Source: an uncultured Pelagibacteraceae bacterium (GTDB taxonomy: Bacteria > Pseudomonadota > Alphaproteobacteria > Pelagibacterales > Pelagibacteraceae). Taken from it: 64,000 nt of DNA. The stretch's first letter is position 1. Every line of letters begins with the position of its first letter. Below, piece by piece: positions 13,732-45,480 of the stretch. The stretch is from assembly GCA_902530635.1 (NCBI GenBank), contig CACABC010000004.1, positions 34,648 to 98,647 on the forward strand, given 5' to 3'. The notes beneath the pieces are model-generated. The model saw only the letters and a list, made by a program, of their open reading frames with translations. It had not been told where the DNA came from and did no database searches. The position numbers and the translations under genes are program-made.

Positions 13732-14897
13732 CCTTTTTTCCTTAAATTTTCATACAAAAAATTTCTTATAATTTCAAAGTATATCAGTGGCAACATTATT
13801 AATGGAGACAAGTAATATATTAAAGTATTAGTAAAAGATTTTCCTGAGTACTTGACCAATATCTCTGCCAAAACCAATATTAAAAAAGCAAAAATAGGAT
13901 AAAAATATCTATAAAAAGTTTTAAATTTACTTTCCTCTCTTGGATTTAAAAGAAAACAAAGAATCAATGTTATTATGGGTATGTAAAGAGGCATACCAAA
14001 TCTTCTATTTATTTCAGATAATACATCGTTTTTTTTATGGTCCCTTGGACAGTTCAAAATGATTTTGTTATCTCTATCGAAAAAACACTTTATAAGAAGA
14101 TAGGATGAGGTTTCTTGTATCTTAGTTTGTGTTATAGATCTTGTTTGCACATTTTCTAATTTGAGAATTGTTTTTTCAAATTTTATAGTTTGAATCTTAT
14201 TTTTGTTGTTAGCACCCTCGGAAATTTTTTCGGATTGAATTATTCCGTTACGCAATATTAAAACTGGATTATTTGAATCTGCAACCCGACCTTTTTTTGC
14301 AATTATTGTAACATTGTCTGTACTACTAACATTTTCAATACTTTTAAGAACTGAACTTTCATCTCTAATAAAAATATTTTCCATATCACCATTTTCATTT
14401 TTTTTCTCGACGTAAATTGTTAAGCCAGGAACAGAGTCGTTAAATTGATTGGTTTTAACCATACTTGATATAAAATCAAAATTAGATGATTTAATTAAAG
14501 TTCTTGAATGATTTAATATATTTGGATTTATAATCGTTGCAAAAATTAGCTGAAATAAAGTTACAATTAAAGAAACTTTAACAAAAAAATTAACAAGATT
14601 TAATTTGTTTAAACCAGAGGTCCATAGAATTATTAATTCATTTTCATTCTCAAACTTAATTATTGATAGAACTAATGCTATCAAAAATGATAGAGGTATA
14701 AATTTGGTTAATATTTTGGGAACGTTGAGAAGGGAATAACCAAGGTAAATTGACAAGGCATGACCATCATCTACCACCAAATCGAGGAAGTTTACGGCCT
14801 GGACAGTCCAAACTATCGCAGTAAAAGTGAATAAAGTTATTAAAAAATACTTGCTTAATTCTAGAAAAAAGTGCTTATAAATTTTATTACTCAACAT
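13728..14897 (-). CDS. lptF: LPS export ABC transporter permease LptF
   Basis: 389 residues with LptF/LptG topology: helices at about 13-120, a periplasmic beta domain at 130-290, and C-terminal helices from about 300. Residues GMPLYIPIITLILCFLL mark the fourth helix. First gene of a six-gene envelope operon running to rsmA. A promoter-like pair sits 19-47 bases upstream of its start. Confidence 0.93.
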   Translation of the reverse strand: MLSNKIYKHFFLELSKYFLITLFTFTAIVWTVQAVNFLDLVVDDGHALSIYLGYSLLNVPKILTKFIPLSFLIALVLSIIKFENENELIILWTSGLNKLNLVNFFVKVSLIVTLFQLIFATIINPNILNHSRTLIKSSNFDFISSMVKTNQFNDSVPGLTIYVEKKNENGDMENIFIRDESSVLKSIENVSSTDNVTIIAKKGRVADSNNPVLILRNGIIQSEKISEGANNKNKIQTIKFEKTILKLENVQTRSITQTKIQETSSYLLIKCFFDRDNKIILNCPRDHKKNDVLSEINRRFGMPLYIPIITLILCFLLNPREESKFKTFYRYFYPIFAFLILVLAEILVKYSGKSFTNTLIYYLSPLIMLPLIYFEIIRNFLYENLRKKG

Positions 14898-14915
14898 TGT
14901 TATTGTTTTTGTATA

Positions 14916-14944
14916 TAATTAAAGCAACTAATAAGAAAATTCAA
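14916..14944 (-). promoter_or_regulatory. Predicted promoter for the lptF operon
   Basis: Minus-strand -35 TTGAAT (14939-14944) and -10 TAATTA (14916-14921) with a 17-base spacer. The start point would be near 14909, 12 bases before the lptF ATG. The plus strand of the same short gap carries a TATAAT at 14914-14919 that could serve as the -10 of pepA, so both divergent genes may be driven from overlapping sites. Confidence 0.4.
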
Positions 14945-14958
14945 TCTAAGGTTTTAAT

Positions 14959-16404
14959 ATGATAAATTTTAACAGTAAATTTAACTCAAAAGCTTCAAAT
15001 ATAGGTTTTTTTATATCAAATGATCTAAAATTTAAGCCAAGTACGTCTATACCTCAGTCTACTATATCTAAGATAAATTCTTTTCTAAAAAAGAAATCAA
15101 AAGATAATAAAAAACAAATTTTTTCTTTTGACTTATCTGAAAGTCAAAAGTGCTTTTTAATTTTAATCAAAAAAAATCTAAATATTTATGAGATAAATAA
15201 TCTTGGCGCTAATTTAAAAAATTATATAAAAACTGATAAAACTATTAAAAATATTTGTATACATGGAAATTCATTTTCTGAAGAAATTATTTCTGAGTTT
15301 GCATATGGATTTGAACTTAAAAGCTATACTTTTAATAAGTACAAGTCAAAAAAAGATGACTTTGTTCAATCAATCGATTTTAGTGTTAAAAATCCAACCT
15401 CCTTTAAACTAAAATATAAAAACTTCTCTTCAATAAAAGAAGGTGTTTTTTTAGCGAGAGACCTTGTTTCCGAGCCACCAAATGTTTTAAATCCAAAAAA
15501 GTATACTGAAGAAATTAAAAAATTAAAAAAACTTGGTTTAAAAATTGAAGTTTTAAATGAAAAACAAATGAAAAAACTTGGCATGCATTCTTTACTTGGA
15601 GTTGGTCAAGGAAGTGAGAATGAATCATTTATGGTTGTTATAAAATGGAATGGTGCAAAACAAAACTTTGGTAAACCCTTAGCCTTTGTTGGAAAGGGAG
15701 TCTGTTTTGATACTGGAGGAATATCTTTAAAGCCAGCAAGATTTATGGAAGAGATGAAATATGATATGGGTGGCTCCGCAGTTGTAGTTGGTTTAATGAA
15801 ATGTTTAGCAAAAAGAAAAGCAAAAGTTAATGCTATTGGTGTAGTAGGTTTAGTTGAAAATATGCCGGATGGTAATGCACAAAGACCAGGAGATATAGTT
15901 AAGTCTTATTCGGGTAAAACAATCGAAGTGTTAAATACAGATGCTGAAGGAAGATTAGTATTAGCAGATGCTTTAACTTATACAGAGAAAAAATTTAATC
16001 CAAAATTTATTATTGATCTAGCGACTTTAACCGGAGCTATTATTATGGCTCTAGGAGAAGAGTATGCAGGATTGTTTTCGAATAATGATAAGATATCGAA
16101 TGAACTATATGAAATTGGGAATCAAATTAATGAAAAAGTTTGGAGATTGCCACTTCATAAAAACTACGACAAACTAATGAACTCTGCTTACGCTGATGTA
16201 CAAAATATAAACTATGCAGGTGGTGCAGGCTCTATTACAGCTGCTCAATTTTTACAAAGATTTATTATCAAGAATACACCTTGGGCACATTTAGATATAG
16301 CTGGAATGGCTTTTTCCAAAAAAGCTGCCAGCTTAAATTCAGGTGGTGCAACAGGATTCGGTGTAAGATTGTTGAATGATTTAGTAATGAAAAATTACGA
16401 ATAA
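14959..16404 (+). CDS. pepA: Leucyl aminopeptidase (M17) PepA
   Basis: 481 residues. The N-terminal macro-like domain is divergent (about 1-150). The catalytic domain contains GKGVCFDTGGISLKP, the metal/active-site MKYDMGGSA and the family signature NTDAEGRL near 331-338, so the two-zinc active site is intact. It removes N-terminal residues from cytosolic peptides. It is followed by ndk after 5 bases. In many alphaproteobacteria holC lies between pepA and ndk; it is missing here. Confidence 0.96.
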   Translation: MINFNSKFNSKASNIGFFISNDLKFKPSTSIPQSTISKINSFLKKKSKDNKKQIFSFDLSESQKCFLILIKKNLNIYEINNLGANLKNYIKTDKTIKNICIHGNSFSEEIISEFAYGFELKSYTFNKYKSKKDDFVQSIDFSVKNPTSFKLKYKNFSSIKEGVFLARDLVSEPPNVLNPKKYTEEIKKLKKLGLKIEVLNEKQMKKLGMHSLLGVGQGSENESFMVVIKWNGAKQNFGKPLAFVGKGVCFDTGGISLKPARFMEEMKYDMGGSAVVVGLMKCLAKRKAKVNAIGVVGLVENMPDGNAQRPGDIVKSYSGKTIEVLNTDAEGRLVLADALTYTEKKFNPKFIIDLATLTGAIIMALGEEYAGLFSNNDKISNELYEIGNQINEKVWRLPLHKNYDKLMNSAYADVQNINYAGGAGSITAAQFLQRFIIKNTPWAHLDIAGMAFSKKAASLNSGGATGFGVRLLNDLVMKNYE

Positions 16405-29718: not shown

Positions 29719-30663
29719 TTATCTATTTAAAGCTTTATAAATTATCAAAGAGAAATCAGTAAAAATTTGAACTGTAGCATTAACATTTGTTAATGGGTGA
29801 TTTAAATTACTTTCAGAAATTTTGTCATAAGAAAGCCTGTATCGCTTATTATTTAAATCTTTTTTGACAAATTTGGATTTACATAACCAATCTAGTTTTC
29901 TAATACATGTTGCTCTTGGGATGCCAGTAACTTCAGAAACTGAAGTAGCACTAATATCAGGATATTTAATCTCATTATTATTCAAATCTGCCTTTTTTTT
30001 TGAATAATTCAATGACTGTATTACACTTTGTAAACCAATAAGAAGAATTTCTAAATCTTTCGTTTTTAATTGCCAATATTTCATATATTCCAGTTGAGCA
30101 TTTAAATAGTGATACCAATAAAAACAATAATTTTTTTCTATCTCTTTATATATTTTCGAAAATGGAGTATTCAAACTTAAAGACTTAGATTGTTCGTATA
30201 AAAACTTGGACAAAGATGCAATTTGTTCTTTTATGATCGTCATATAAGTGTCTTTATACTGCGATGCGGGTTCCCAAAATATTTTATTTCTAGAGGACTT
30301 CTTTAAATGTTTGTCTTTTGTAAGGTGCAATATCTTTCTTCTAGTAGTTTCTTTTGGTAAACCAGTATATTTTGAAACAGCAATTATTTTATGTTTATCT
30401 TGAGTGGTATTTTGATGATTGAACCAAAATTTTTCCAATGATAGGTCAAAATTTAAGTCCTCTTCTCTTTTTCTCATCAATCTCAGATGTAAGTCTCTAG
30501 CAAAATATATAACTATCTGACCACCTTCTAAATCTCCATAGCGTTTATATATACCCGAAAGGAATGTGCTTTGCATTTCATAAAAAATTGGTAGGAGTCT
30601 AGAAAAATTATCTTCAAAATTTTTTTGTATTAATTTATTGTCAAGATTTAAATTTTTGTTCAT
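29719..30663 (-). CDS. Putative transcriptional regulator with two HTH-like segments
   Basis: 314 residues, not a family I can name. Two similar segments look like helix-turn-helix recognition regions: IAVSKYTGLPKETTRRKILHLTK (about 93-115) and TSVSEVTGIPRATCIRKLDWLCK (about 240-262). Each ends in a K-K/R and beta-wing-like stretch (LKKSSRNKIF; FVKKDLNNKRYRLS). The spacing suggests a tandem duplication of a winged-helix domain with a helical linker (about 130-230) rich in aromatic residues. It ends the rfbB-rfbD-rfbC strand but has its own promoter with an embedded perfect palindrome at 30709-30725, suggesting autoregulation. No ligand domain is evident. Confidence 0.55.
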   Translation of the reverse strand: MNKNLNLDNKLIQKNFEDNFSRLLPIFYEMQSTFLSGIYKRYGDLEGGQIVIYFARDLHLRLMRKREEDLNFDLSLEKFWFNHQNTTQDKHKIIAVSKYTGLPKETTRRKILHLTKDKHLKKSSRNKIFWEPASQYKDTYMTIIKEQIASLSKFLYEQSKSLSLNTPFSKIYKEIEKNYCFYWYHYLNAQLEYMKYWQLKTKDLEILLIGLQSVIQSLNYSKKKADLNNNEIKYPDISATSVSEVTGIPRATCIRKLDWLCKSKFVKKDLNNKRYRLSYDKISESNLNHPLTNVNATVQIFTDFSLIIYKALNR

Positions 30664-34098: not shown

Positions 34099-35316
34099 AT
34101 GAAAAAAAAAATATTAATTCTTTTTAAAGCATCTTGGCATTGGAATAAATTTTTTATAAATAAACTCTCAAAATTTTATGAAGTTGAATATTTATATTTA
34201 GATCAAATTAAAAAAAACTATTTTGGAACTTTATCTGAAATAAATAATTTTATTGAAAATAACAAAATTGAGATTGTCTTTTTTGATATAGATTATCAAA
34301 AAATTGTAAATGTTTTTTTCATAAGAAAAATTAAAAATGTAAAGAAAGTAATGGTTACTTGGGATGATTATGAAAGACATAATTTTAATTTAATAACATC
34401 AAACTCATGTAATTTTGTAGTTACAGGTTGTCCGGTTTCAGAATTAAAATATAAAGAAATAGGGTGCCCAGCATCGTTTATGATATTAGAGTCCGATGGT
34501 TCTTTCTATAGAAATCTAAAATTAAAAAAAGATATCGAAGTCCTGTTCTTCGGCAAAGTGAACAAAAATAGAAATATTTTTCTAAACTTTATAAAAGAAA
34601 GTGGTATTAAAATTAAGGTAGTTGGCAACAATGAGGAAAACCGTGTGTCAGACGAAGAACTTGTAAGTTTGATATGCAGATCTAAAATTGTTATAAACTT
34701 TTCAAAGACCACCTGGGGCAAAATTATGAATATTCCTGAAAAAAATGTTTTTCAATATCAATATCAACTAAAGGGCAGAATTATACAATCAGGTCTTTGT
34801 GGAACAGCATGTATTACAGAATATGCGCCACACCATAGATTGTTGTATAAGGAAAATGAATTAATAGAGTTTAATAATAAAAAAGAATGCGTTGAAAAGA
34901 TTAAAGATTTATTAAAAAATCCAGAGTTATTAAATAATTATACAGAAACATTTTCTAATAAAACAAAAAATTTTTACGAAGAAGAAAAGTCTTTCCAAAA
35001 GACCTATGACTTTTTAAATAAAATGGATAATAAACAAGTAAAAGAAAAACCAAGGTATCAAATTATAGCACCATATTGGTATCTAAGGATATGTGCCAAA
35101 CAAATTCTTTTAAAAAATTTAAAAATTTCAAAAATTTTCGATTCAATATTTCTCTTAAAAGAAGTTGCATTTTTAGCTAATAAGACGAATATCTTAGTGA
35201 AACTTATGTTGTTTAGTGAATCAATTTTAAATATTATTTGGTTTTCGATCATCAGACTTTTAAAAACTAAAGGTGCTGGAAAAAACAGATATAAAGACGA
35301 ATACGGGAGTTCTTAA
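34099..35316 (+). CDS. CgeB-like glycosyltransferase
   Basis: 405 residues. The first part has Rossmann-like alternation (KKKILILFKASWHWNKFF, IEIVFFDIDYQ, VMVTWDDYERHN). The second GT-B-like half contains IEVLFFGKVNKNRNIF, SKIVINFSKTTWG, and LKGRIIQSGLCGTACITEYAPHH, like the C-terminal glycosyltransferase domain of CgeB/spore-maturation-type proteins. It probably transfers a sugar during glycan assembly. It ends just before the radical SAM start. Confidence 0.68.
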   Translation: MKKKILILFKASWHWNKFFINKLSKFYEVEYLYLDQIKKNYFGTLSEINNFIENNKIEIVFFDIDYQKIVNVFFIRKIKNVKKVMVTWDDYERHNFNLITSNSCNFVVTGCPVSELKYKEIGCPASFMILESDGSFYRNLKLKKDIEVLFFGKVNKNRNIFLNFIKESGIKIKVVGNNEENRVSDEELVSLICRSKIVINFSKTTWGKIMNIPEKNVFQYQYQLKGRIIQSGLCGTACITEYAPHHRLLYKENELIEFNNKKECVEKIKDLLKNPELLNNYTETFSNKTKNFYEEEKSFQKTYDFLNKMDNKQVKEKPRYQIIAPYWYLRICAKQILLKNLKISKIFDSIFLLKEVAFLANKTNILVKLMLFSESILNIIWFSIIRLLKTKGAGKNRYKDEYGSS

Positions 35317-35317
35317 A

Positions 35318-36838
35318 ATGAGTTTAGATATTCTATTTGTACACACAAACGCCTCTAAAAAAATTTATCAAGATTTAAGTAAAGACCATTCAGCTTTTGA
35401 ACCACCTATTTGGGCTGGAATGTTAGCAAATCATTGTAGAAATAAAAAATTTAAAGTTGAGATTCTTGATTGTGAAGTAAATGGACTTGATTTTATAAAA
35501 AGTGCACAGGAAATTAGTGAAGCAAAACCCAAAATAGCTTGTTTTGTAGTTTATGGTCAGCAACCTTCGGCATCTTCACAAAATATGGAAGGAGCCACCA
35601 TTACATCAAAAGAACTTAAAAAAATTAATAAAAATATAAAGATATTATTTGTTGGTGGACATATTGCTGCTTTACCGAAAGAAACTCTAAAAGATGAAGA
35701 AAGCATAGATTTTGTTGCTTTGAACGAAGGTGTTTATGCAATTTCTAATTTGTTAAAAGTAGAAAATTTAAATGACGAAACTTATCTTAAGAAAGTTAAG
35801 GGTATTGGTTTTAGAAATAAGGAAAACCAAATTTTTATTAATGAACCTCAGTCGATTGTTCCAAAAAATCTTTTAGAGCAGGACCTTCCAGGTATTGCAT
35901 GGGATTTGTTACCCAATTTATCAAAATATAGAACGGCTGGGTGGCATTCCTGGTCAAATAATTCTGAAAAACAACCCTTTGCAGCTCTATATACAAGTTT
36001 AGGATGTCCGTACAAATGTTCTTTCTGCATGATAAACATTATTAATAGAATGAATCATGCTGACAACATCTCCTCACAAGACTCTAATATGTTTAGATGG
36101 TGGTCACCTGAATTTATAATTAAGCAGTTTGATCATATTGCAAAATTGGGTATCAAAAATGTTAAAATTGCAGACGAACTTTTTGTACTAAATCCAAATC
36201 ATTTTTTAAAAATTTGTGATCTTTTAATAGAGAGAAATTATGGGTTTAATATTTGGGCATACTCTCGAATTGATACTTGCAAACCTCAATTTTTAGAAAA
36301 ACTCAAAAAAGCTGGAGTTAATTGGTTGGGACTTGGGATTGAAAATCCAGACACTGTTTTGAGGAAAGAGGTTCACAAAGACTCTTATAAGGAAGTGAAA
36401 ATAATTGATGTCATAAACAGTATAAGAGATTCTGGAATTAATGTTGCCGCAAACTATATTTTTGGATTGCCTGAAGATACTGAAGAAAGTTTAAAGTTCA
36501 CATATTCATTTGCTGAAGAAACAAATTCAGAAATGGTTAATTTTTATTCCGCTATGGCCTATCCAGGAAGTCCTCTCTATCTAGATGCAAAAAAAAATGG
36601 AATAGAGCTACCTAAAACATATTCAGGATATAGCCAACATTCTTATGATACACAAAATTTATCTACATCAAAACTTTCAGCGGCAGAAATTCTAAAATTT
36701 AGAGATGAGGCGTGGATGAAATATCATACTAATGAAAAATATTTAAATTTAATAAATAAAAAATTTGGTTCAAAAGCAGTAGATAATATTAAAAATACTA
36801 CAAAAATTAAGTTAAAAAGAAAATTATTAGGAGATTAA
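35318..36838 (+). CDS. B12-binding domain radical SAM protein
   Basis: 506 residues from the ATG at 35318, preceded by CGGGAG; the frame is open 15 codons further upstream, overlapping the previous gene. The N-terminal cobalamin-binding-like Rossmann domain spans about 1-150 (LFVGGHIAALPKE). The radical SAM barrel has the cluster motif CPYKCSFC (CxxxCxxC, near 230) and GLGIENPD and NYIFGLPEDTEES segments. This class includes C- and P-methylases and other oxidases. Its stop is one base before the first E1-like gene, so it likely acts in the same pathway, possibly methylating or rearranging the sugar. Confidence 0.85.
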   Translation: MSLDILFVHTNASKKIYQDLSKDHSAFEPPIWAGMLANHCRNKKFKVEILDCEVNGLDFIKSAQEISEAKPKIACFVVYGQQPSASSQNMEGATITSKELKKINKNIKILFVGGHIAALPKETLKDEESIDFVALNEGVYAISNLLKVENLNDETYLKKVKGIGFRNKENQIFINEPQSIVPKNLLEQDLPGIAWDLLPNLSKYRTAGWHSWSNNSEKQPFAALYTSLGCPYKCSFCMINIINRMNHADNISSQDSNMFRWWSPEFIIKQFDHIAKLGIKNVKIADELFVLNPNHFLKICDLLIERNYGFNIWAYSRIDTCKPQFLEKLKKAGVNWLGLGIENPDTVLRKEVHKDSYKEVKIIDVINSIRDSGINVAANYIFGLPEDTEESLKFTYSFAEETNSEMVNFYSAMAYPGSPLYLDAKKNGIELPKTYSGYSQHSYDTQNLSTSKLSAAEILKFRDEAWMKYHTNEKYLNLINKKFGSKAVDNIKNTTKIKLKRKLLGD

Positions 36839-36839
36839 G

Positions 36840-37682
36840 TTGAATATTAAAGAATATAGACTCATGACATTCAAAAAAGCTTCATTATGTAGACATTTTG
36901 AAAATGAAGTATACAAAAGAGTTCAAGAGAAAAAAATTAACTTTCCAGTTTATTTGTCTGCTGGTCAAGAATATGTGCCATCATCAATTGCTCAATTAGT
37001 TCATAACAAAAAGATTAAACCAATGTTATTTGGACAGCACAGAGGGCACTCGATTTATTTATCTTTTGGTGGTGATGTAACTCAGTTAATTGATGAACTG
37101 CTAGGAATGAAGTCTGGATGTACCAGGGGCATGGGCGGCTCTCTATCGATAAGCTCAAAAAAAATTAATATGTTTGGACACGAAGGTCTTATGGGAAGCA
37201 ATGCCTGTATGGGTGTTGGTGCTTGCTTTTCTTCTTCAAAGCCTACAATAGTTTTTTTAGGAGATGCTTCTGTAGAAGAAGATTATGTTTTAGCATCATT
37301 AAGCTGGGCAGCAAAAAAAGAATTGCCAATTCTTTTTGTGGTAGAAGATAATAATTATGCAGTTTTAACCAAAAAAGAAGACAGAAGAGATTGGAAAGCC
37401 AAGGATGTAGCTAAAGCATTTAAATTAGATTCTTATGATACACAAGATAATCCAGAAAACATTTTTAAAATTTTAAAAAAAAATATTTTTAAAAAACCTA
37501 TATTCATAAATGTTCATACAAAAAGGCTATATTGGCATGCAGGTGCTGGTGAGGACGAAAAGGTTTTTGGTGATAGATTGGGCAAAGAAATGAAATATTT
37601 AGGAAAAAGAGCTGTAGAAATCGATAATAAAATAAAAAATAGAATTAAAAAATTATGGCAACAGCGCTTAGAGAAACTATAA
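36840..37682 (+). CDS. Thiamine-diphosphate E1 alpha-like subunit, first pair
   Basis: 280 residues, TTG start. It resembles the alpha subunit of pyruvate/branched-chain 2-oxoacid dehydrogenases and acetoin dehydrogenase: LSAGQEYVPSSIAQ (40-52), GQHRGHSIYLSFGGD (65-79), MGGSLSI, GHEGLMG, and the cofactor motif GDAS...EDNN (141-172), with the metal-binding Asp and Asn kept. There is no E2 or E3 gene nearby, so a lipoyl-transferring dehydrogenase complex is unlikely; carboligation or C2 transfer to a sugar is more plausible in this setting. Overlaps the beta-like gene by 28 bases. Confidence 0.85.
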   Translation: MNIKEYRLMTFKKASLCRHFENEVYKRVQEKKINFPVYLSAGQEYVPSSIAQLVHNKKIKPMLFGQHRGHSIYLSFGGDVTQLIDELLGMKSGCTRGMGGSLSISSKKINMFGHEGLMGSNACMGVGACFSSSKPTIVFLGDASVEEDYVLASLSWAAKKELPILFVVEDNNYAVLTKKEDRRDWKAKDVAKAFKLDSYDTQDNPENIFKILKKNIFKKPIFINVHTKRLYWHAGAGEDEKVFGDRLGKEMKYLGKRAVEIDNKIKNRIKKLWQQRLEKL

Positions 37683-38587
37683 AAAATATAACTTTTAAAC
37701 ATCTTAAAAAATTTAAAGGCCAAGTTTTTGGTCAGAATTTAACAGGTGTTGGTTGGGTAGCTGGAACTTTACCTGAATTATATGAAAAAGATGGCGTTAT
37801 TGAATTGCCACTAGCAGATGTTGCAAACGGAGGTATGGTTACAGGTTCCGCATTGGTGGGAAGAAGACCTTTTTATATAATAAGATATCAGGGATATAAT
37901 TGGCTTAATTGTATTTTCATTGCTAATTACGCTTGCAAATCAAAAGAGATATGGGACAAGCCAGCACCCATGTTTATTAGAGGACTTTCAAACGAAGGAG
38001 GACTTGGTCCTGTATCCACGTCTAGTCACATTTCAATTTTTTATAAAATGCCTGGAATAAAAATTTTTTCACCAATGAGTAACAAAGAATACTTAAAAAT
38101 ATATAAAAAATTTATGCAAGAAGATGAAGTGTTTTATATTTCAGAGCATAGAAAAAGTTATGAAAATAAATTAGAATTTAAAAATACAATTAAAAAAGCC
38201 CTAGATATAATATTGATGCCAATATCGGTAACTCGTTTTGAGGCAGAAAAAGCCAAAAATCATTTAAATAAACTTGGATACAGGGTTGGAATTATTCATT
38301 TATTTGAATTAAAGCCATTTGTTCTTAAAAAAAAATGGATAAATGCCATCAAAAAATCTAAATACGGAGTTTTAATGACCGATAATGATTATGTGGATGG
38401 CATATTGAGAACTCTTGCACACAAGATAAATGAGAAGACTGATCAAACTGTAAACGTCATGGGTCTAAAGGATAAATCAGCTGGCTATACAGTTAAGACC
38501 AGTAATTTTCCACCATCGGCATTAGATATTATTAATAAAGTTAGAGTCATTATTTCTAAAAAAAGAAGAAAAAAAAAAAATGGATAA
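37655..38587 (+). CDS. Thiamine-diphosphate E1 beta-like subunit, first pair
   Basis: 310 residues. It starts MATALRETIKNI, like E1 beta subunits. The pyrimidine-binding domain (about 1-170) is followed by a transketolase C-terminal domain (about 190-300; LGYRVGIIHLFELKPF). At the place of the conserved catalytic Glu (PISE in relatives) it reads PLAD, so Asp55 would replace Glu, judged by eye. The start lies inside the previous gene (28-base overlap), supporting coupled synthesis of the two subunits. The C-terminus is a Lys/Arg run encoded by a long A tract that runs into the next gene. Confidence 0.82.
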   Translation: MATALRETIKNITFKHLKKFKGQVFGQNLTGVGWVAGTLPELYEKDGVIELPLADVANGGMVTGSALVGRRPFYIIRYQGYNWLNCIFIANYACKSKEIWDKPAPMFIRGLSNEGGLGPVSTSSHISIFYKMPGIKIFSPMSNKEYLKIYKKFMQEDEVFYISEHRKSYENKLEFKNTIKKALDIILMPISVTRFEAEKAKNHLNKLGYRVGIIHLFELKPFVLKKKWINAIKKSKYGVLMTDNDYVDGILRTLAHKINEKTDQTVNVMGLKDKSAGYTVKTSNFPPSALDIINKVRVIISKKRRKKKNG

Positions 38588-39182
38588 AAAAGAATTAATA
38601 GATTTTGAAGAGGAAATTGCCTCTCTGTTTAATAAAGGAAAAATTTTGTCACCAGTTCATCTTTATCAAGGAAATGAAGAAAAAATTATTAATATTTTTA
38701 AAAAAATCAAAAAACAAGACTGGGTTTTTTGTAGTTGGAGGTCTCATTATCAATGTCTTTTAAAAGGAGTGCCAAAAGATATAATAAAAAAAGAAATTCT
38801 TGATGGCAGATCTATATCATTGTGTTTTCCAGATTATAAAATATATTCTTCAGCTTTAGTTGGAGGTTCAATACCTATAGCAGTTGGAACCGCAATGTCT
38901 TTAAAGCTTAAAAATGAGAGAAATACTATGGTTTATTGTTTTATGGGAGAAATGACATCTGAGACAGGAATTGCTCATGAATGCATAAAGTACAGTAGAA
39001 ATTTTGATTTACCTATCCACTTTGTAATTGAGGACAATGAAAAATCAGTCTGTACTGACACAAGAAAGACTTGGATGCAAAAAAAATTAAGCTATGAGGG
39101 AGTTAACGATAAATTTGTTACCTTTTATAGCTACAAATCAAAGTGGCCACATGCTGGCGCGGGAAGTAGAGTGCAATTTTAA
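38580..39182 (+). CDS. Thiamine-diphosphate E1 alpha-like subunit, second pair
   Basis: 200 residues, shorter than the first alpha (280). It keeps the SWRSHYQCLLKG (52-63) equivalent of the first subunit's GQHRGHSIYL, ALVGGSIPIAVGTAMSLK, and the cofactor region GEM...EDNE (123-154). Compared with GD...NN, both metal-binding positions are altered (Asp to Glu, last Asn to Glu), judged by eye. It ends WPHAGAGSRVQF, matching the WHAGAGEDEKV of the first alpha and then stopping, so the tail is shortened. Overlaps the previous gene by 8 bases. Confidence 0.78.
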   Translation: MDKKELIDFEEEIASLFNKGKILSPVHLYQGNEEKIINIFKKIKKQDWVFCSWRSHYQCLLKGVPKDIIKKEILDGRSISLCFPDYKIYSSALVGGSIPIAVGTAMSLKLKNERNTMVYCFMGEMTSETGIAHECIKYSRNFDLPIHFVIEDNEKSVCTDTRKTWMQKKLSYEGVNDKFVTFYSYKSKWPHAGAGSRVQF

Positions 39183-39186
39183 CTTT

Positions 39187-39723
39187 ATGAAATATTCAGA
39201 AGAACTTACTAAAGCAATGGATTTTTTAGGAAAAGACCCTAGAACACTATTTGTTGGGCAAGCTGTTGAATATCCGGGTACTGCAATGAGTAATACATTA
39301 AAAAACATACCTAAAAAAAAACTTTACGAACTTCCTGTTGCTGAAGAGATGCAACTTGGAATTACAAATGGGCTTGCATTAAACAATTATGTTCCAGTTA
39401 GTATATTCCCTAGATGGAATTTTCTTTTGCTTGCTGCTAACCAACTAATTAATCACTTAGATAAGTTTGATGTTATGTCTCAGGGCATGTTTAAAACAAA
39501 AGTAATCATAAGAACTTCTATTGGGTCTCAAAGACCACTTCATCCTCAACATCAACACATCGGAGATTTTACTGAAGCATTTAAAAAAGTTTTAACTACA
39601 GTAGATATTATTAGGTTAGATGAAGCATCAGATATCTTCCCATCCTACAAAAAAGCACTTACAAGAGAAGACGGAAAAAGTACTATTTTAGTAGAGTATG
39701 GAGATTTTTATAACGAGAAATAA
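39187..39723 (+). CDS. Thiamine-diphosphate E1 beta-like subunit, second pair, pyrimidine domain only
   Basis: About 178 residues from the ATG at 39187, four bases after the previous stop; the frame is open upstream into that gene, but the extra residues do not look conserved. It contains VGQAVEYPGTAMSNTLK, the conserved Glu in LPVAEEMQLGITNGLAL (near 49-65) and PRWNFLLLAANQLINHLDK, so it is a pyrimidine-binding E1 beta domain. The transketolase C-terminal domain is absent. Together with the preceding gene it would make a minimal alpha/beta unit. Confidence 0.78.
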   Translation: MKYSEELTKAMDFLGKDPRTLFVGQAVEYPGTAMSNTLKNIPKKKLYELPVAEEMQLGITNGLALNNYVPVSIFPRWNFLLLAANQLINHLDKFDVMSQGMFKTKVIIRTSIGSQRPLHPQHQHIGDFTEAFKKVLTTVDIIRLDEASDIFPSYKKALTREDGKSTILVEYGDFYNEK

Positions 39724-39728
39724 AATAC

Positions 39729-40721
39729 ATGATAATTACTAAAACTCCTTATCGTATATCTTTTTTTGGTGGTGGTAGCGATTACCCTTCATGGTATAAA
39801 AAAAATGGTGGAGCAGTTTTATCAACAACAATTGATAAATATATATTTATTTCATGTCGTTTTTCTCCAGAGTATTTTAAACACAAGTACAGAATAGTTT
39901 GGAGAAAAATTGAAAACGTTCAAAGAATTAATGAGATAAATCACAGAGCTGTTAGAGAATTATTAAAATATTTAAACATCAAACATGGATTAGAGATACA
40001 CTACTATGGTGATTTACCCGCAAGAAGTGGTATGGGGTCTAGCTCTTCTTTCACAGTTGGTTTAATGAATGCTTTACACAAAATAAAGAATGTAAAATTA
40101 ACAAAATCTAAATTAGCAAATAAAAGCATATATTTTGAACAAAAAGTCATGAAAGAGGTAGTTGGGTCCCAAGATCAAACCTCAGCTTCTTTTGGAGGTT
40201 TTAATAAAATAATATTTAATAAAAACGATTCTATTAATGTTAAAAAAATTAAATCAAAAAACAATCTTCAACGATTAAACGAAAATCTAGTTTTAATTTA
40301 TACTGGGATTAATAGAACAGCACATAAAATTGCTAATCAGTACGTAAATAAGCTTACAACAGTTAAAAGAGATCATATCGAAAGAATTATAGAATATGTT
40401 GGGGAAGGTGAAAAAATATTAAATTATGGTGACATAGATGATTTTGGAAGACTTTTAAATGATGCCTGGACAGAAAAAAAGGCCCTAAGCAATTTAATAA
40501 CAAATTCGAAAATTAATGAAATATATGATTTGGCCATGAAATATGGAGCTTTGGGAGGAAAGCTTTTAGGTGCTGGAGGAGGAGGTTTTTTGTTAATGTA
40601 TATGAACAAAAATAAAAGAAAAAACTTTTTTAAAAGAAATAAAAAATTAGTTAATATTCCTTTTACTTTTACAAATTTGGGTAGTGAAATCATTTTTGAT
40701 AAATTAATAAAAAAAATATAA
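39729..40721 (+). CDS. hddA: GHMP-family sugar kinase, HddA-like (heptose 7-phosphate kinase)
   Basis: 330 residues. GHMP motif 1 PYRISFFGGGSDYPSWY (7-23), motif 2 PARSGMGSSSSFTVGLMNAL (97-116) and motif 3 KLLGAGGGGFLLMY (near 277-290). The FGGGSDYP start and overall pattern fit D-glycero-alpha-D-manno-heptose 7-phosphate kinase (HddA), which makes the 1,7-bisphosphate. The nearby HddC-GmhB fusion would carry out the next two steps. Other GHMP sugar kinases (fucokinase-like) are possible. The TAATG overlap with the following gene indicates coupling. Confidence 0.8.
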   Translation: MIITKTPYRISFFGGGSDYPSWYKKNGGAVLSTTIDKYIFISCRFSPEYFKHKYRIVWRKIENVQRINEINHRAVRELLKYLNIKHGLEIHYYGDLPARSGMGSSSSFTVGLMNALHKIKNVKLTKSKLANKSIYFEQKVMKEVVGSQDQTSASFGGFNKIIFNKNDSINVKKIKSKNNLQRLNENLVLIYTGINRTAHKIANQYVNKLTTVKRDHIERIIEYVGEGEKILNYGDIDDFGRLLNDAWTEKKALSNLITNSKINEIYDLAMKYGALGGKLLGAGGGGFLLMYMNKNKRKNFFKRNKKLVNIPFTFTNLGSEIIFDKLIKKI

Positions 40722-41902
40722 TGAAAATTAATCATCCATTAATGCATAACAATTTTTTAAATTCTGATATGAATGCGGTAAGAAAATTGATTAGAAAAAA
40801 GAATCTTATGCTTACACAATCAAAAAAAGTTTTAGAATTCGAAAAAAAATGGTCTAAATGGCTTGGTGTAAAATATAGTGTTTTTGTTAATTCAGGTTCT
40901 TCTGCAAACTTTATCAGCATGTTGATTCTTAAGAGCCTATCTCCAAAAAAAAAAGAAATTATAGTTCCAACTCTTACATGGGTTTCAGATATAAATTCAG
41001 TAATTATGAGTGGTTTTAAACCTGTTTTTGTAGATATAGACCCAAAAAATCTATCAATGAATGAAGATCAGGTCCTAAAAAAAATTAACAAAAATACCCT
41101 TGCTGTTTTTATTACACACGTTCAAGGTTTTAATGGATTATCAGAAAAGATTTTAAAAAAGATTAAAAATAAAAAAGTTATACTAATAGAGGATGTGTGC
41201 GAATCTCATGGTGCAACTTTTAAAAATAAAAAACTAGGAACTTTTGGTTTGATATCAAACTTTTCTTTTTATTATGCTCACCATATGTCTACAATCGAGG
41301 GCGGTATGGTATGCACAAACGATAAAAAGATTTATGAAAAGGCAAGAATTTTTAGATCCCATGGAATGTCACGCGAGTCTAAAAACTATACATTTGAAAA
41401 AAAAATTATAAGAAAATACCCTAAACTATCTCCACAGTTTATTTTTCTTCATCCTACATTCAACTTTAGGAACAATGAAATTGGTGCTGTAATAGGGTTA
41501 AATCAACTTAAAAGACTTAATAGAAATAATCGTATAAGAACAAAAAATTTAAAACTTTTCTTAAAATTATTGAATCCTTTAAAATATAGAACCAACTATG
41601 ATATTAAGGGAAGCTCCAATTATGCTTTTCCTGTAATTTTTCAAAATAAAAATTTTAAGTTTAGAGAAAAATTTGAGCTTACTTTAAGAAAGCACAATAT
41701 AGAATTTAGAAGAGGGAATGCAGGAGGAGGGAATCAGTTGAGACAACCTTATCTAAAACCTTATTTAAAAGGGATTAATTTAAAAAATTTTTCTGAGGTA
41801 GAGCACGTTCATTTTTTTGGATATTATATTGGTAACTATCCAAGTCTAAAAAATGAAAAAATAAAAAAAATATGCAAAATTTTAAATAAAATAAATTTAT
41901 AA
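40721..41902 (+). CDS. ColD-like PLP-dependent sugar 3-dehydratase (DegT/DnrJ family)
   Basis: 393 residues, DegT/DnrJ/EryC1/StrS fold. Family marks are NSGSSANFISM (57-67), the PLP Asp in IEDVCESHGA (near 158), and VPTLTWVSD. At the Schiff-base lysine position the sequence is FYYAHHMSTIEGG, with His188 instead of Lys. His at this place marks the 3-dehydratases (ColD, and RfbH with an iron-sulfur cluster) rather than aminotransferases. The cysteine cluster of RfbH is not seen, so it is ColD-like. It would remove the C3 hydroxyl from a 4-keto nucleotide sugar. Coupled to the kinase by a 1-base overlap. Confidence 0.8.
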   Translation: MKINHPLMHNNFLNSDMNAVRKLIRKKNLMLTQSKKVLEFEKKWSKWLGVKYSVFVNSGSSANFISMLILKSLSPKKKEIIVPTLTWVSDINSVIMSGFKPVFVDIDPKNLSMNEDQVLKKINKNTLAVFITHVQGFNGLSEKILKKIKNKKVILIEDVCESHGATFKNKKLGTFGLISNFSFYYAHHMSTIEGGMVCTNDKKIYEKARIFRSHGMSRESKNYTFEKKIIRKYPKLSPQFIFLHPTFNFRNNEIGAVIGLNQLKRLNRNNRIRTKNLKLFLKLLNPLKYRTNYDIKGSSNYAFPVIFQNKNFKFREKFELTLRKHNIEFRRGNAGGGNQLRQPYLKPYLKGINLKNFSEVEHVHFFGYYIGNYPSLKNEKIKKICKILNKINL

Positions 41903-41916
41903 AATAGAGGTGACAT

Positions 41917-42405
41917 ATGTTAAAAATAAAAGTAATTAAAAATTCTACCTTTGAAGATCATAGAGGTTTCTATTGGACAACTTGGAAAAAAGGTGTTTTT
42001 AACAAAATAAAGTTCAATCATGATAAGTTTTCTATTTCAAAAAAAAATGTTTTGAGAGGACTACACTGTGATTTTAAATCTTGGAAATTAGTAACATGTA
42101 CTTTTGGAAAAGTATTTTTTGTTGTTATTGATATGAAAAAAAAATCTAAAAATTATTTAAAACATAAATGCTGGGTATTAAACCATGAAAAGCCAACATT
42201 GATACTTGTGCCCCCACACTTTGCGAATGCTTATTTATGTTTATCAAAAAAATGTGTCTTTCATTACAAATGGCATTACAAAGGAAAATACATTGATTCG
42301 AATAAGCAAAAAAGTTATCGATGGAATGATCCGAAATTTAAAATTAAATGGCCTATAAAAAAACCAATTTTAAGTAAAAGAGACAAAACTTCTAATTTTT
42401 TATAA
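41917..42405 (+). CDS. RmlC-like sugar epimerase family protein, altered active site
   Basis: 162 residues, cupin fold related to RmlC: FEDHRGFYWTTW, NVLRGLHCDFKSWKLVT (near 46-62), KVFFVVIDMKKKSKN, and the C-terminal WNDPKFKIKWPI. In the second His motif the usual GFAHG reads HFANA, so that active-site His is Asn, although an extra His lies three residues earlier. It may epimerise only one carbon or act as an isomerase. The GAGGTGA ribosome site is good. It sits between the ColD-like gene and an SDR. Confidence 0.75.
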   Translation: MLKIKVIKNSTFEDHRGFYWTTWKKGVFNKIKFNHDKFSISKKNVLRGLHCDFKSWKLVTCTFGKVFFVVIDMKKKSKNYLKHKCWVLNHEKPTLILVPPHFANAYLCLSKKCVFHYKWHYKGKYIDSNKQKSYRWNDPKFKIKWPIKKPILSKRDKTSNFL

Positions 42406-42413
42406 AAGAAATA

Positions 42414-43349
42414 ATGAGCAAAATATTAATAACTGGGGGAGGCGGGTACGTTGGATCAATGCTTACAACTATTCTAGTTAATCTGGGCCACCATGTATCT
42501 GTCATAGATTTAATGAAATACGATAAAGGTTCATTAAATCACCTCTATTACTATAAAAATTTTAAATTAATTCAAAAAGATATTAGAGATAAAAAAATAA
42601 TGAAAAAACTAATCAGACAAAATGAATATATTATTCCATTAGCTGCGTTGGTCGGTGCTCCTTTATGTGATAAAAATAAAAAAGAAGCAGTTTCTGTTAA
42701 CTACGATTCAATAAAATCACTAGTGTCTCTAAGTACAAAAAAAAATAAAATAATTTTTTTGACAACTAACTCAGGATATGGCGTAGGCGAAAAAAATAAA
42801 TTTTGTGATGAAAATAGCCCTTTAAGACCTATTTCACTTTATGGCAGGACAAAATGTGATGCAGAAAAAGAAGTAATGAAATTTAAAAATTGTATTTGTT
42901 TTAGATTAGCAACTGTTTTTGGTTTTAGTTACCGCATGAGAACTGATTTATTAGTTAATAACTTTGTTTATAATGCAATGCAGACAAAAAGATTAATTAT
43001 TTTTGAACCTCACTTTAGGAGAAATTTTATTCATATTAGGGATGTTGTTTCTGCTATCGTTTATTCAATTAATAATTTTAAGAAATTGAGATCGAATGTT
43101 TATAATCTTGGATTATCTTCGGCAAATATAAGTAAATTAATGTTGGCGAAAAAAATTAGAAAGCAGATGAAAAATTTAAAAGTTAAAATAGTCAAAAATA
43201 AAAAGGATCCAGACAAAAGAGATTATTTTGTTAGTAATAGAAAAATTGAAAAAAAGGGTTTTAAAGCCAAAATTTTACTTGAAACAGGTATAGATGAATT
43301 AATGACTTTATTCGAAGTTGATAATAAAAAAATAATTAATAACTATTAG
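42414..43349 (+). CDS. NAD-dependent epimerase/dehydratase family protein (SDR), first
   Basis: 311 residues, extended SDR. TGGGGYVGSMLTTIL (7-21) is the NAD motif. TTNSGYGVGE replaces the TDE of 4,6-dehydratases, and the active site is LYGRTKCDAE (Tyr-x-x-x-Lys, near 142-146), with FRRNFIHIRDV near 199. The TNSGYG pattern suggests an epimerase or reductase rather than a 4,6-dehydratase. It probably acts on the same nucleotide sugar as the ColD-like and RmlC-like proteins. Its 3' end overlaps the convergent HddC-GmhB gene by 14 bases. Confidence 0.8.
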   Translation: MSKILITGGGGYVGSMLTTILVNLGHHVSVIDLMKYDKGSLNHLYYYKNFKLIQKDIRDKKIMKKLIRQNEYIIPLAALVGAPLCDKNKKEAVSVNYDSIKSLVSLSTKKNKIIFLTTNSGYGVGEKNKFCDENSPLRPISLYGRTKCDAEKEVMKFKNCICFRLATVFGFSYRMRTDLLVNNFVYNAMQTKRLIIFEPHFRRNFIHIRDVVSAIVYSINNFKKLRSNVYNLGLSSANISKLMLAKKIRKQMKNLKVKIVKNKKDPDKRDYFVSNRKIEKKGFKAKILLETGIDELMTLFEVDNKKIINNY

Positions 43350-44571
43350 ATTTTCTAACTATTTTTTTTACTTGATCATAAAAATTTTCTCTTGCATACT
43401 CAAAATAGATACTGCTTCTATCTGCGCATATTTTATCAGATACCTGGTCTCCAATCATAAAACTTTTTTTAATTTTTGTATGCCATCTAGATTTTATTTG
43501 TTCAATCATCAGATTTCCAGGTTTTCTTAAATTTGTAATTTTTCGATATTTTTTAATTTTTGCCAAAGGATGATAAGGGCAAAAATTTATATCATCAAAA
43601 AAAATATCATTCTTTTGTAATTTTTCTTTTAAGGCATTATGGAGTTTATAAAATTGTATTTCACTATATAGACCTTTTGCTATCCCAGCTTGGTTAGTTA
43701 TTATAAAAATATAATAATTATTTTTAATTAAAAATCTTAGACCTGAAATTACACCTGGCCTTAATTTAAAATCTCTAATTCTATGAACATATCCTGTATC
43801 GTAATTTATTACTCCATCTCTGTCTAAAAATGCAGCTGGTTTTAAACAATTTTTGAGTAGAAGCTTTTTTGCTATTTTAAAATTTTTTGGTGTTCCAATG
43901 TCTAAAAAAAAGTTTTTGACAAAAATACCAGAGATCTTACCTTTTCTTATTAAATTTGGTAAAACATCATTTTCTAAAGAAGTATTTTTATTTTTTATAA
44001 ATTTAAATATTCTTTTCTTAAAAAAATAGACACCACCATTCATGAAGAAATTTTTCTTTTGATAAATTATCTTATTTTTTTTAATTCCTATTGAGTTTAA
44101 TTTTTCATTTGATATATAAGAATGATTTTTAACAAGAGCTAAAGATCCATAACTTTTTTTATCACAGGATTTGATTAATTTTTTTAAATCTATTTCAAGA
44201 AAAGTATCTCCATTTACTAATATAAAATTATTGATTCTTTTTCTTAAACTATACAAAGCACCAGCTGTGCCCATAGGTTTTTTTTCCTTTAGGCATTTCA
44301 CTATAGTGCAATTATAATTTTTATTTTGAAATTTTTTAGAAATTAGGTTTGATTTGTATCCAGTTAGTATAAAAATATTTCTAAAACGATATTTACTGTA
44401 GCTTTGAATTATATATTCTAAAAAAGGTTTATTATTGAAAGTAGCCATTGGTTTAGGCTTTCCTTTTAACAAAGATTTAATTCTTGATCCTTTACCGCCT
44501 GCTAAAATCACTAAATCTAAAGAATGCATTTTTGTAAGCTTAAATTTATAATCAATTGTTGATTTAATCAA
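43336..44571 (-). CDS. HddC-GmhB-like fusion: sugar-1-phosphate nucleotidyltransferase plus HAD phosphatase
   Basis: 411 residues. The N-terminal nucleotidyltransferase domain (about 16-235) has LVILAGGKGSR (20-30), KPKPMATFNNKPFLEY, LVNGDTF near 118 and DIGTPKNF near 224. The C-terminal HAD domain (about 245-405) has the nucleophile in FLDRDGVIN (248-256), IITNQAGIAKG and MIGDQVSDK, the GmhB-type histidinol-phosphatase family. The GmhB zinc loop is degenerate: one CPYH remains but the later C-x-C is TNL. Expected role: dephosphorylate heptose 1,7-bisphosphate and attach GMP. An internal ATG (MHSLDLVI, 44529) may be the true start. Confidence 0.85.
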   Translation of the reverse strand: MIKSTIDYKFKLTKMHSLDLVILAGGKGSRIKSLLKGKPKPMATFNNKPFLEYIIQSYSKYRFRNIFILTGYKSNLISKKFQNKNYNCTIVKCLKEKKPMGTAGALYSLRKRINNFILVNGDTFLEIDLKKLIKSCDKKSYGSLALVKNHSYISNEKLNSIGIKKNKIIYQKKNFFMNGGVYFFKKRIFKFIKNKNTSLENDVLPNLIRKGKISGIFVKNFFLDIGTPKNFKIAKKLLLKNCLKPAAFLDRDGVINYDTGYVHRIRDFKLRPGVISGLRFLIKNNYYIFIITNQAGIAKGLYSEIQFYKLHNALKEKLQKNDIFFDDINFCPYHPLAKIKKYRKITNLRKPGNLMIEQIKSRWHTKIKKSFMIGDQVSDKICADRSSIYFEYARENFYDQVKKIVRKSNSY

Positions 44572-44592
44572 TTTTTAAAATATAAATCTTGA

Positions 44593-45480
44593 ATGCTGAA
44601 AATTAAGAAAATTTTAGTTACAGGCGGAGCTGGCTTTGTAGGCACAAATTTAATCAATTCTTTGCTAAAAAAAACAAAATATAAAATTATTAGCCTTGAT
44701 AATTACTCTTCTGGATCAAAAAAAAATCATATTAAAAATAAAAGAGTAATCTATATAAAAGGAGAAACGAAAAACATCTCTCAAATTATAAAAAAATCAA
44801 AAGATATTATTTCTGTTTTTCATTTTGGTGAATTTGCAAGAATCTATCAAAGTTTTATAAAAATGGATGAGTGTATTGCCTCTAATTCTATCGGAACTAA
44901 TGCGGTTTTTAATTATTGTTTGAAAAATAAAATTAAGCTAATTTATTCAGCTACTTCTGCTTCATTAGGAAACAGGGGGGAAGATAAAAATTTATCTCCT
45001 TATGCTTTTACGAAAGCAAAGAATTTAGGATTATTAGAAAATTTAAAAAAGTGGTTCAACTTTAAATATGAAGTAATATATTTTTATAATGTTTATGGAC
45101 CACATCAAATTTGTAAAGGAGATATGGCTACAGTTATAGGAATATTTGAAAATTATTATAAATTAAAAAGGCCTTTGCCTGTAGTTAAGCCTGGCACACA
45201 AACAAGAAGATTTACGCATATATACGATACAGTTGAAATTTGTTATCAAGCTTGGAAGAAAAAACTTTGTAGACATTACAGCATTGCTCACAGAAGAAGT
45301 TATTCAATATTAGATGTTGCTAAAATGTTTAATACAAAAATAAGATATTTGCCAAAGAGACCAGGGGAAAGATATGCATCAGCATTAACAAATATGAACC
45401 TTTCAAATAAAGTCTACAAACATTTTGGAAAGATCGAACTTGAAGATTATATAAATGATTTCCTAATTAATAATTCTTAA
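44593..45480 (+). CDS. NAD-dependent epimerase/dehydratase family protein (SDR), second
   Basis: 295 residues, extended SDR. NAD motif TGGAGFVGTNLINSLL (11-26), VFHFGEFARIYQSF near 76, SATSASLGN near 121, active site YAFTKAKN near 137-141, and FYNVYGPHQICKGD near 162-175. Resembles UDP-glucose 4-epimerase-type or GDP-sugar epimerases. A second tailoring step for the island's sugar is likely. Divergent from the HddC-GmhB-like gene with 21 bases between starts; convergent with apt. Confidence 0.8.
   Translation: MLKIKKILVTGGAGFVGTNLINSLLKKTKYKIISLDNYSSGSKKNHIKNKRVIYIKGETKNISQIIKKSKDIISVFHFGEFARIYQSFIKMDECIASNSIGTNAVFNYCLKNKIKLIYSATSASLGNRGEDKNLSPYAFTKAKNLGLLENLKKWFNFKYEVIYFYNVYGPHQICKGDMATVIGIFENYYKLKRPLPVVKPGTQTRRFTHIYDTVEICYQAWKKKLCRHYSIAHRRSYSILDVAKMFNTKIRYLPKRPGERYASALTNMNLSNKVYKHFGKIELEDYINDFLINNS

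Follow-up and report, generated by a model that had tools for sequence, protein, structure and literature searches.

Which sugar is made by the compact gene set at positions 35318 to 45480 of a 64,000-nucleotide stretch of DNA from an uncultured Pelagibacteraceae bacterium (contig CACABC010000004.1 of assembly GCA_902530635.1; the whole stretch is called the window below), and what do its two pairs of thiamine diphosphate (ThDP)-dependent E1-like proteins contribute? A first-pass annotation had described a compact set for an unusual, possibly branched deoxy-heptose. The open reading frame (ORF) list and family scans of the window confirm that every gene it named is present, in compact order and under matching names, and the core of the set recurs together in bacteria and phages. 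Judging from gene content, the set probably makes a GDP-linked 3-deoxy-heptose whose C4 carries a branch derived from an acyl group and which is destined for a surface polysaccharide. Phages offer a natural experiment here: different ThDP enzymes replace one another at one locus, which suggests that they share a reaction. The genes and their predicted products are as follows.

35318..36838, plus strand: rSAM, radical S-adenosylmethionine (SAM) protein with a B12-binding domain, 506 residues (Pfam Radical_SAM and B12-binding)
36840..37682, plus strand: E1a1, ThDP E1-alpha-like protein of pair 1, 280 residues (E1_dh, 57.7 bits)
37655..38587, plus strand: E1b1, ThDP E1-beta-like protein of pair 1, 310 residues (Transket_pyr, 25.8 bits, and Transketolase_C, 21.4 bits, both slightly below cut-off)
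38580..39182, plus strand: E1a2, minimal ThDP E1-alpha of pair 2, 200 residues (E1_dh, 60.4 bits)
39187..39723, plus strand: E1b2, minimal ThDP E1-beta of pair 2, 178 residues, without C-terminal transketolase domain (start set by homology)
39729..40721, plus strand: HddA-like GHMP heptose-phosphate kinase (best NCBIfam model HddA, 147.1 bits)
40721..41902, plus strand: ColD-type pyridoxal phosphate (PLP) 3-dehydratase, His for Lys (2gms, E 1.8e-49; 3gr9, named ColD, E 1.2e-47)
41917..42405, plus strand: RmlC-like protein of GDP-4-keto-heptose epimerase type (7ani and 8dcl, E ~6e-41)
42414..43349, plus strand: SDR1, short-chain dehydrogenase/reductase (SDR), Cj1427-type sugar-nucleotide C4-dehydrogenase (6vo6, E 4.2e-92)
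43336..44571, minus strand: HddC-GmhB fusion, nucleotidyltransferase and heptose bisphosphatase (HddC 106.9 and GmhB 122.7 bits, below cut-offs)
44593..45480, plus strand: SDR2, NAD-dependent epimerase/dehydratase-like protein (Pfam Epimerase)
34099..35316, plus strand: glycosyltransferase (Glyco_trans_1_2), adjoining the set

In the proposed pathway, SDR1 would oxidise C4 of GDP-heptose, with the C6 hydroxyl kept, and the ColD-type enzyme would take off the C3 hydroxyl to give GDP-3-deoxy-4-keto-heptose, whose C5 the RmlC-like protein may invert. A ThDP enzyme would then decarboxylate a 2-oxo acid (pyruvate being likeliest) and join the acyl part to C4 at the ketone; with the resulting tertiary alcohol, a C4-reductase would be unnecessary. 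The radical SAM protein would modify the product further, by C-methylation or, as kinship with AprD4 hints, by radical dehydration or rearrangement.

Predicted GDP-heptose chemistry of the gene set

SDR1 has a close full-length match, of the Cj1427 type, to PDB entry 6vo6 (residues 2-302; next solved relative E 5e-17), which we take to be Cj1427, the GDP-heptose C4-dehydrogenase; the match table does not carry that name. The first-pass annotation had seen a gap in the lack of a 4,6-dehydratase beyond rfbB. Since SDR1 matches 6vo6, no such enzyme is needed and the gap closes, SDR1 filling the 4-keto step. The RmlC-like protein likewise has its nearest matches in entries like 8dcl, which bears the name GDP-4-keto-heptose epimerase (E 6e-41; next group E 3e-21). 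The ColD-like protein carries the His that replaces the PLP lysine in ColD-type enzymes, as do all 114 members that score at least 500 bits (window included); weaker members have His in 10 cases, Lys in 10 and a gap in 1. Altogether, these three proteins point to GDP-4-keto-heptose chemistry.

Each has a counterpart in the GDP-heptose modification of C. jejuni: SDR1 resembles Cj1427, the ColD-like protein the HS:5 C3-dehydratase and the RmlC-like protein the 4-keto-heptose epimerases. Cj1427 oxidises C4 of GDP-D-glycero-manno-heptose, with tightly bound NADH that is re-oxidised by 2-oxoglutarate, and a C4-reductase closes the route (PMC10680097); in HS:5 the C3-dehydratase acts after 4,6-dehydration (PMC10440746). 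Combined in vitro with a C3-dehydratase from another serotype, Cj1427 gave GDP-D-glycero-3-deoxy-4-keto-heptose, under a heading of novel compounds (PMC10680097). The window set unites predicted Cj1427-type and C3-dehydratase functions in one gene cluster; if our reading is true, it is a natural pathway to a nucleotide heptose otherwise reported from mixed-serotype enzymes (PMC10680097). The C. jejuni route differs in ending with a C4-reductase, and PMC10680097 mentions neither thiamin nor radical SAM.

Two E1-like pairs with the layout of branching enzymes

The two pairs are mutually distant (an E1a2 search finds E1a1 at ~30% identity), and the proteins of pair 1 are the longer ones. The start of E1b2 is probably 39187 rather than 39094, the homologue at locus L028 (our locus labels carry the prefix L) beginning at the aligned Met with 178 residues. 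Across 82 aligned sequences, the region matching 39187-39723 has a median of 178 and a maximum of 179 residues (the shortest is cut to 55) and the E1a2 part spans 199-202; no sequence reaches beyond the C-termini of the window's E1a2 and E1b2, and pair 2 therefore lacks the C-terminal transketolase domain. The predicted ThDP-site residues of pair 2 are intact, with E1a2 G123, N153, R54, H56 and H191 kept in 162/162 sequences and E1b2 Glu53 in 157/157. Glu53 aligns with the Glu of the pyruvate dehydrogenase (PDH) E1-beta motif TPISE, which we take to be catalytic. The predicted structure of E1b2 (predicted local distance difference test score, pLDDT, 89.6) is nearest in fold to PDH E1-beta; it also matches the two-chain decarboxylase AzcB/AzcC, whose chain lengths are similar.

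The window pairs do not have the TPP_enzyme N, M and C domains of a YerE-type single chain and match E1_dh and Transket_pyr instead. Their gene layout is that of two-chain branching enzymes, an E1-alpha gene next to an E1-beta gene inside a keto-sugar cluster that has no E2 gene, as in KbDH, AviB1/AviB2, EvdU5/EvdS3 and Pau11/Pau12, where such a pair likewise stands in a nucleotide-sugar cluster. KbDH has been shown in vitro to attach a C2 unit taken from pyruvate, the same being proposed for the others (PMC12247030, PMC10338323, PMC4753412), and two-chain ThDP enzymes do branch keto sugars using pyruvate (PMC12247030). The suggestion that split E1-like enzymes stand in for YerE fits the domains and layout of the pairs; given these published precedents it is not new in kind. 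Those precedents come from antibiotic clusters, and pair 2 differs from them in lacking the beta C-terminal domain. The two pairs look like alternative branching enzymes standing together in the window.

Could the pairs instead be the E1 of an ordinary 2-oxoacid dehydrogenase complex? In sequence and fold they are nearest to PDH E1 subunits. However, both E2 genes of the genome adjoin other E1 genes, a 1004-residue single-chain E1 (read as AceE-type) and a 967-residue OGDH-type E1, and the first-pass annotation's concern that an E2 partner might lie elsewhere found no support in this 0.99 Mb, 86%-complete assembly, on whose completeness all absences from the genome depend. Moreover, pair 2 is without the E1-beta C-terminal domain, the Transketolase_C match of pair 1 is weak (21.4 bits, cut-off 25.9), and the conserved neighbours of E1a2 are nucleotide-sugar genes, making this explanation scarcely credible.

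The annotation's plainer alternative was a split transketolase providing sedoheptulose 7-phosphate, the start of heptose synthesis. Cyanophage relatives annotated as transketolase central region favour it, as does the weak match of E1b1 to an NCBIfam transketolase model. We nonetheless find it very unlikely: the genome has a separate 660-residue frame with the best transketolase-pyrimidine-domain match, read as the transketolase; both alpha chains match E1_dh (Pfam) and no chain in either pair has a Pfam match to the transketolase N-terminal domain at E 0.001; pair 2 stops ahead of the C-terminal domain in 157/157 sequences compared; and an enzyme of other domain architecture, YerE-like, occupies the same place in phages.

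Exchange of the ThDP enzyme at one phage locus

Viral loci were taken from IMG/VR as the best 80 of 102 matches to E1a2 and the best 80 of 309 to rSAM; some contigs stand in both lists, and the counts reflect seeding and list size rather than frequencies. Presence thresholds, here and for the bacterial loci below, were chosen by us. The 80 E1a2-seeded loci hold rSAM in 78 cases, E1b2 in 77, SDR1 in 65, and HddA and ColD in 50 each; where flanks of 7 kb or more are available both ways (36 viral loci), SDR1 and E1b2 are present in all, rSAM in 34 and HddA in 16.

L160 is part of a contig of 157.7 kb; there the six genes are flanked by those for a DNA helicase and the late sigma factor, with genes for head maturation protease, the major head protein and SbcC/SbcD-like proteins close by (PHROGs names). 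A T4-type major capsid gene was found in 15 of 33 large records of the E1a2 list searched whole (13 at E <1e-140). The two weaker matches fall in records without HddA, and most HddA-less records of this set gave no major capsid match, so that the phage nature of most of these leans on the IMG/VR label.

Between rSAM and HddA the ThDP enzyme is exchanged. The place is taken by E1a2/E1b2 in 50 viral contigs (18 distinct at <95% rSAM identity), by E1a1/E1b1 alone in 19 (10 distinct by that measure), by a YerE-like gene in 7 (5 distinct) and by no ThDP gene in 1. A T4-type helicase or late sigma gene accompanies 49/50, 16/19 and 7/7 of these loci, respectively, and both genes are present in 25, 3 and 4; outside the rSAM-to-HddA arrangement, a T4 core gene was seen in 21/83 viral loci. 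None of the three ThDP types occurs in 9/160 viral loci, most of them short. The phage YerE-like protein (L238:3808-5643) does have the TPP_enzyme N, M and C domains of a YerE-type single chain, and its best PDB match is 8rph (295.7 bits vs 270.4 for the best acetolactate synthase), which is JanthE, a YerE-like enzyme forming tertiary alcohols (PMC12188165). In deoxy keto sugars, the ketone is where YerE-like enzymes join on a 2-oxo acid (PMC12247030).

Two ThDP architectures that share place, neighbours and phage site most simply catalyse the same reaction. The swap is thus a strong but indirect argument for acyl branching of a 4-keto sugar by both pairs of the window, and E1-like pairs that score as PDH subunits become directly testable as branching enzymes. 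The first-pass scheme, in which E1-like pairs branch a 3-deoxy-4-keto-heptose, keeps its branching role through this swap and the two-chain precedents; its route to the 4-keto group through a 4,6-dehydratase gives way to a Cj1427-type step. The phage occurrence also hints that T4-like phages use branched heptoses to remodel the surface sugars of their hosts.

Eight loci of the rSAM list combine SDR1, rSAM, a PanB-type ketopantoate hydroxymethyltransferase and a YerE-like gene; the PanB-type gene sits between rSAM and the YerE-like gene in L218, L219, L221, L222, L223, L233, L248 and L256. This neighbour hints at a hydroxylated, made-to-order 2-oxo acid donor; ErwE is reported to prefer hydroxylated 2-oxo acid donors (PMC12247030). 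A DJ-1/PfpI-family gene (Pfam match) directly follows the phage rSAM gene in L247 (7502-8059), and one DJ-1/PfpI-like by resemblance lies directly behind rSAM in L266 (5631-6164), in the usual place of the ThDP enzyme.

Conservation in bacteria

An E1a2 alignment search of named genomes gave 90 related stretches, of which 80 were retained; 47 of these extend 9 kb or more both ways (full-flank loci). Seeded in this way, the survey tells what accompanies E1a2; it does not measure how often pair 1 occurs by itself, and its counts are not frequencies. Longest-frame ORF calls in high-GC loci gave shadow frames, and counts were redone by profile search of six-frame translations. The labels GmhA, GmhB, HddC and Fcl-like were given by us from sequence resemblance, the last agreeing with a GDP-L-fucose synthase match (E 9e-97). 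By their titles the 80 loci span SAR11, SAR116, Beta- and Gammaproteobacteria, Nitrospira, Verrucomicrobia, Planctomycetes, Terriglobia and Cyanobacteria; many come from metagenome bins, in which single taxon names may be wrong.

The 47 full-flank loci hold E1b2 in all cases, HddA in 46, SDR1 in 44, ColD, HddC and rSAM in 43 each, an Fcl-like SDR in 28, GmhA in 14 and pair 1 in 5. The earlier proposal depended on the genes being conserved together, and they are: all six core genes (HddA-like kinase, HddC, ColD-type, Cj1427-type, radical SAM and E1a2/E1b2) occur in 35 of the 47. Among cultured carriers, Piscinibacter defluvii SH-1 (L078) has HddA, E1a2, E1b2, ColD, HddC, GmhA, SDR1 and rSAM. 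This recurrence around E1a2 relatives across the 80 loci takes the grouping beyond chance. Both pairs stand side by side in the window and in 7/80 bacterial loci, GMD-like genes occur in 5/80, and the SDR2 family, which has no clear best solved relative, is present in 6 of the clustered loci.

The distribution of E1a2 is patchy. Strong matches were found in 9 of 61 relatives' genomes and in 2 of 398 genomes sampled across the phylum, the window's own included each time; E1a1 (E <=1e-30) is found in 9 of 31 genus genomes, own included, with G025 at 33% identity only. Plasmid records gave 260 matches, none at 60% identity or more and the best 20 of the 260 at most 32.5%.

Points that weigh against a branched heptose

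Several observations weigh against the proposed pathway. HddA is the best family for the kinase at 147.1 vs 600 bits, and HddC (106.9 vs 300 bits) and GmhB (122.7 vs 149.6) are best-matching models that, like HddA, fall below the curated NCBIfam cut-offs, which weakens the predicted heptose identity. SDR1 and E1a2/E1b2 occur without HddA in 20 of the 36 flanked viral loci, and any GHMP kinase was found in 13 of 33 large viral records; the core branching enzymes may therefore work on a different GDP-sugar or draw on GDP-heptose of the host. ColD is missing from 4/47 full-flank bacterial loci. HddA directly follows rSAM in 20 bacterial loci, and the exact order rSAM-ThDP-HddA is therefore a feature of phages and SAR11. 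The Fcl-like SDR, which is of the usual C4-reductase type, was not found in 19/47 full-flank loci; this speaks for the proposed pathway, but other SDRs could serve as the C4-reductase there.

The enzymes themselves raise further points. E1b1 has Asp where the catalytic Glu is usual, in the window and in 7/7 bacterial relatives, which could change or weaken pair 1, and its transketolase match reaches 22.9 bits against a cut-off of 488. The best NCBIfam model of the phage YerE-like protein is acetolactate synthase (405.6 vs 538.35 bits cut-off), and L266 carries rSAM and HddA without a ThDP enzyme, ColD or SDR1 between its helicase and late sigma genes.

The HddA-less viral loci and the sub-threshold scores would suit an alternative in which the pairs branch a 4-keto sugar that is no heptose, the true unit being SDR1, rSAM and the ThDP enzyme, with the kinase and nucleotidyltransferase serving another GDP-sugar. 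We consider this possible, though rather unlikely: GDP-heptose entries are by far the best matches of both SDR1 (6vo6, taken as Cj1427) and the RmlC-like protein (8dcl, by its name), GmhA-like SIS genes occur in 24/80 bacterial loci, and two cyanophages have an annotated phosphoheptose isomerase close to their fused ThDP gene. The window's set has no GmhA gene; a SIS-domain protein, read as GmhA-like, lies elsewhere in the genome at C2:58373-58939.

The radical SAM protein

Residues C230, C234 and C237 of rSAM are invariant in 31 aligned sequences, and this Cys triad with the B12-binding domain gives it the hallmarks of cobalamin-dependent radical SAM enzymes. As the genome holds only two B12-binding-domain frames, rSAM and one of 541 residues, its use of cobalamin is putative. 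The rSAM model (pLDDT 90.3) is nearest in fold to AprD4 (6fd2), a radical sugar diol dehydratase, and then to the methyltransferase TsrM; a sequence search also puts AprD4 first among solved relatives. The best NCBIfam model is HpnJ, at 129.8 bits far under its cut-off of 577.6. A search of open-licence PMC papers found none treating AprD4 together with HpnJ.

The kinship to AprD4, and the near-equal constancy of rSAM and SDR1 (rSAM in 43/47 bacterial and 78/80 viral loci), could also fit a ThDP enzyme acting away from C4, for instance one that cleaves or extends the C6-C7 side chain of a substrate prepared by rSAM. This is improbable in view of the conserved SDR1, which would supply a C4 ketone, and of the YerE-like enzymes, one of which occupies the same place and which act at the ketone of deoxy keto sugars (PMC12247030). 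If the preferred reading is true, SAR11-type marine bacteria would have a ThDP branching enzyme of minimal two-chain build together with a radical SAM step linked to branched sugars.

A probable composite locus with phage affinities

Does the gene order of the window recur? The order rSAM, E1a1, E1b1, E1a2, E1b2, HddA is common to six SAR11 loci. In four of these the YerE-like profile finds a further gene, at a lower score (~300 bits); such a gene stands directly before rSAM in three SAR11 loci examined, where the window has its glycosyltransferase. The window rSAM is 86% identical to that of L039, 69% to its best viral homologue and 42-49% to bacterial ones outside its nearest kin, and in an rSAM tree (one FastTree run) it groups with E1a1- and YerE-associated phage proteins, the HddA-type E1a2 phages being placed with most bacteria. 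The tree is not clean, HddA-less E1a2 phages and the single E1a2 carriers L236, L268, L270, L274, L279, L042 and L049 also falling in the window's half. HddA and ColD of the window are nearer to bacterial than to phage proteins (49 vs 39% and 55 vs 52%), E1a2 is marginally so (71 vs 69%) and SDR1 is about equal. The window, which combines two of the three ThDP types with an rSAM gene of phage affinity, thus looks composite, and we infer that a phage-affinity cassette seems to have joined a bacterial module.

A wider scenario, tentative and on balance doubtful, is that bacteria and T4-like phages pass between them a mobile pathway for C4-branched heptoses whose parts are mixed and matched. Phages would retain rSAM, the kinase, the 3-dehydratase and the 4-dehydrogenase as a constant frame at one genome site, with the ThDP enzyme alone exchanged among three lineages, two distant E1-like ones and a YerE-like one. 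During infection every phage would thereby give the surface sugar of its host a branch of its own and so exclude competitors, and the AprD4/HpnJ-like rSAM would rework the branched sugar in a reaction new for nucleotide sugars.

Relation to known systems and further observations

Yersiniose A synthesis (YerE, JanthE, ErwE) likewise uses a ThDP enzyme to join an acyl unit to a deoxy keto nucleotide sugar, and phages of this set have a JanthE-like enzyme in the corresponding place. That pathway runs through CDP-sugars, and its ThDP enzyme is a single chain (PMC12247030, PMC4753412), whereas the window has a probable GDP-heptose, a Cj1427-type step, a two-chain ThDP enzyme and a radical SAM protein. 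Cyanophages P-TIM68 (L214) and S-SM2 (L215) carry, near a carbohydrate kinase, a nucleotidyltransferase and a phosphoheptose isomerase, a fused ThDP protein (381 and 402 residues) that matches E1a2 and then E1b2; these sugar islands differ in that the fused protein is only 33-38% identical to E1a2/E1b2, and rSAM matches just two of 50,697 deposited phage records, at 22% identity. Radical SAM cassettes have been noted in pelagimyophage variable regions (PMC7029224). No earlier description of the gene set was found by title and abstract start in the open-licence PMC literature; it is new as a combination and for its phage occurrence, from enzymes of known kinds. A link to bradyrhizose was dropped: the excerpt of PMC4743980 mentions no dehydrogenase, transketolase or pyruvate.

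Related genes occur nearby and elsewhere. L127 (C2:92001-111000 of the window's genome) holds a third E1-alpha/E1-beta pair (14300-16342, minus strand, 324 and 355 residues) beside DegT-like and sugar genes, with no E2 gene within the 19 kb stretch; it is possibly another sugar-branching pair. Split transketolase-like pairs, as we read them, lie in SAR11 glycan islands in L127 (8270-10026, minus strand, 316 and 268 residues, adjoining a short-chain dehydrogenase) and L038 (5618-7361, minus strand, 333 and 270 residues). In the window, a block of other genes borders the set on the side away from the glycosyltransferase, and a 314-residue protein without any Pfam match (29719-30663, minus strand) lies right before the sugar island. 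In L128 (C2:50001-68000 of the same genome), genes for a GmhA-like SIS protein, a TonB-receptor-like protein and the other B12-binding radical SAM protein are clustered at 8373-14084 on the minus strand.

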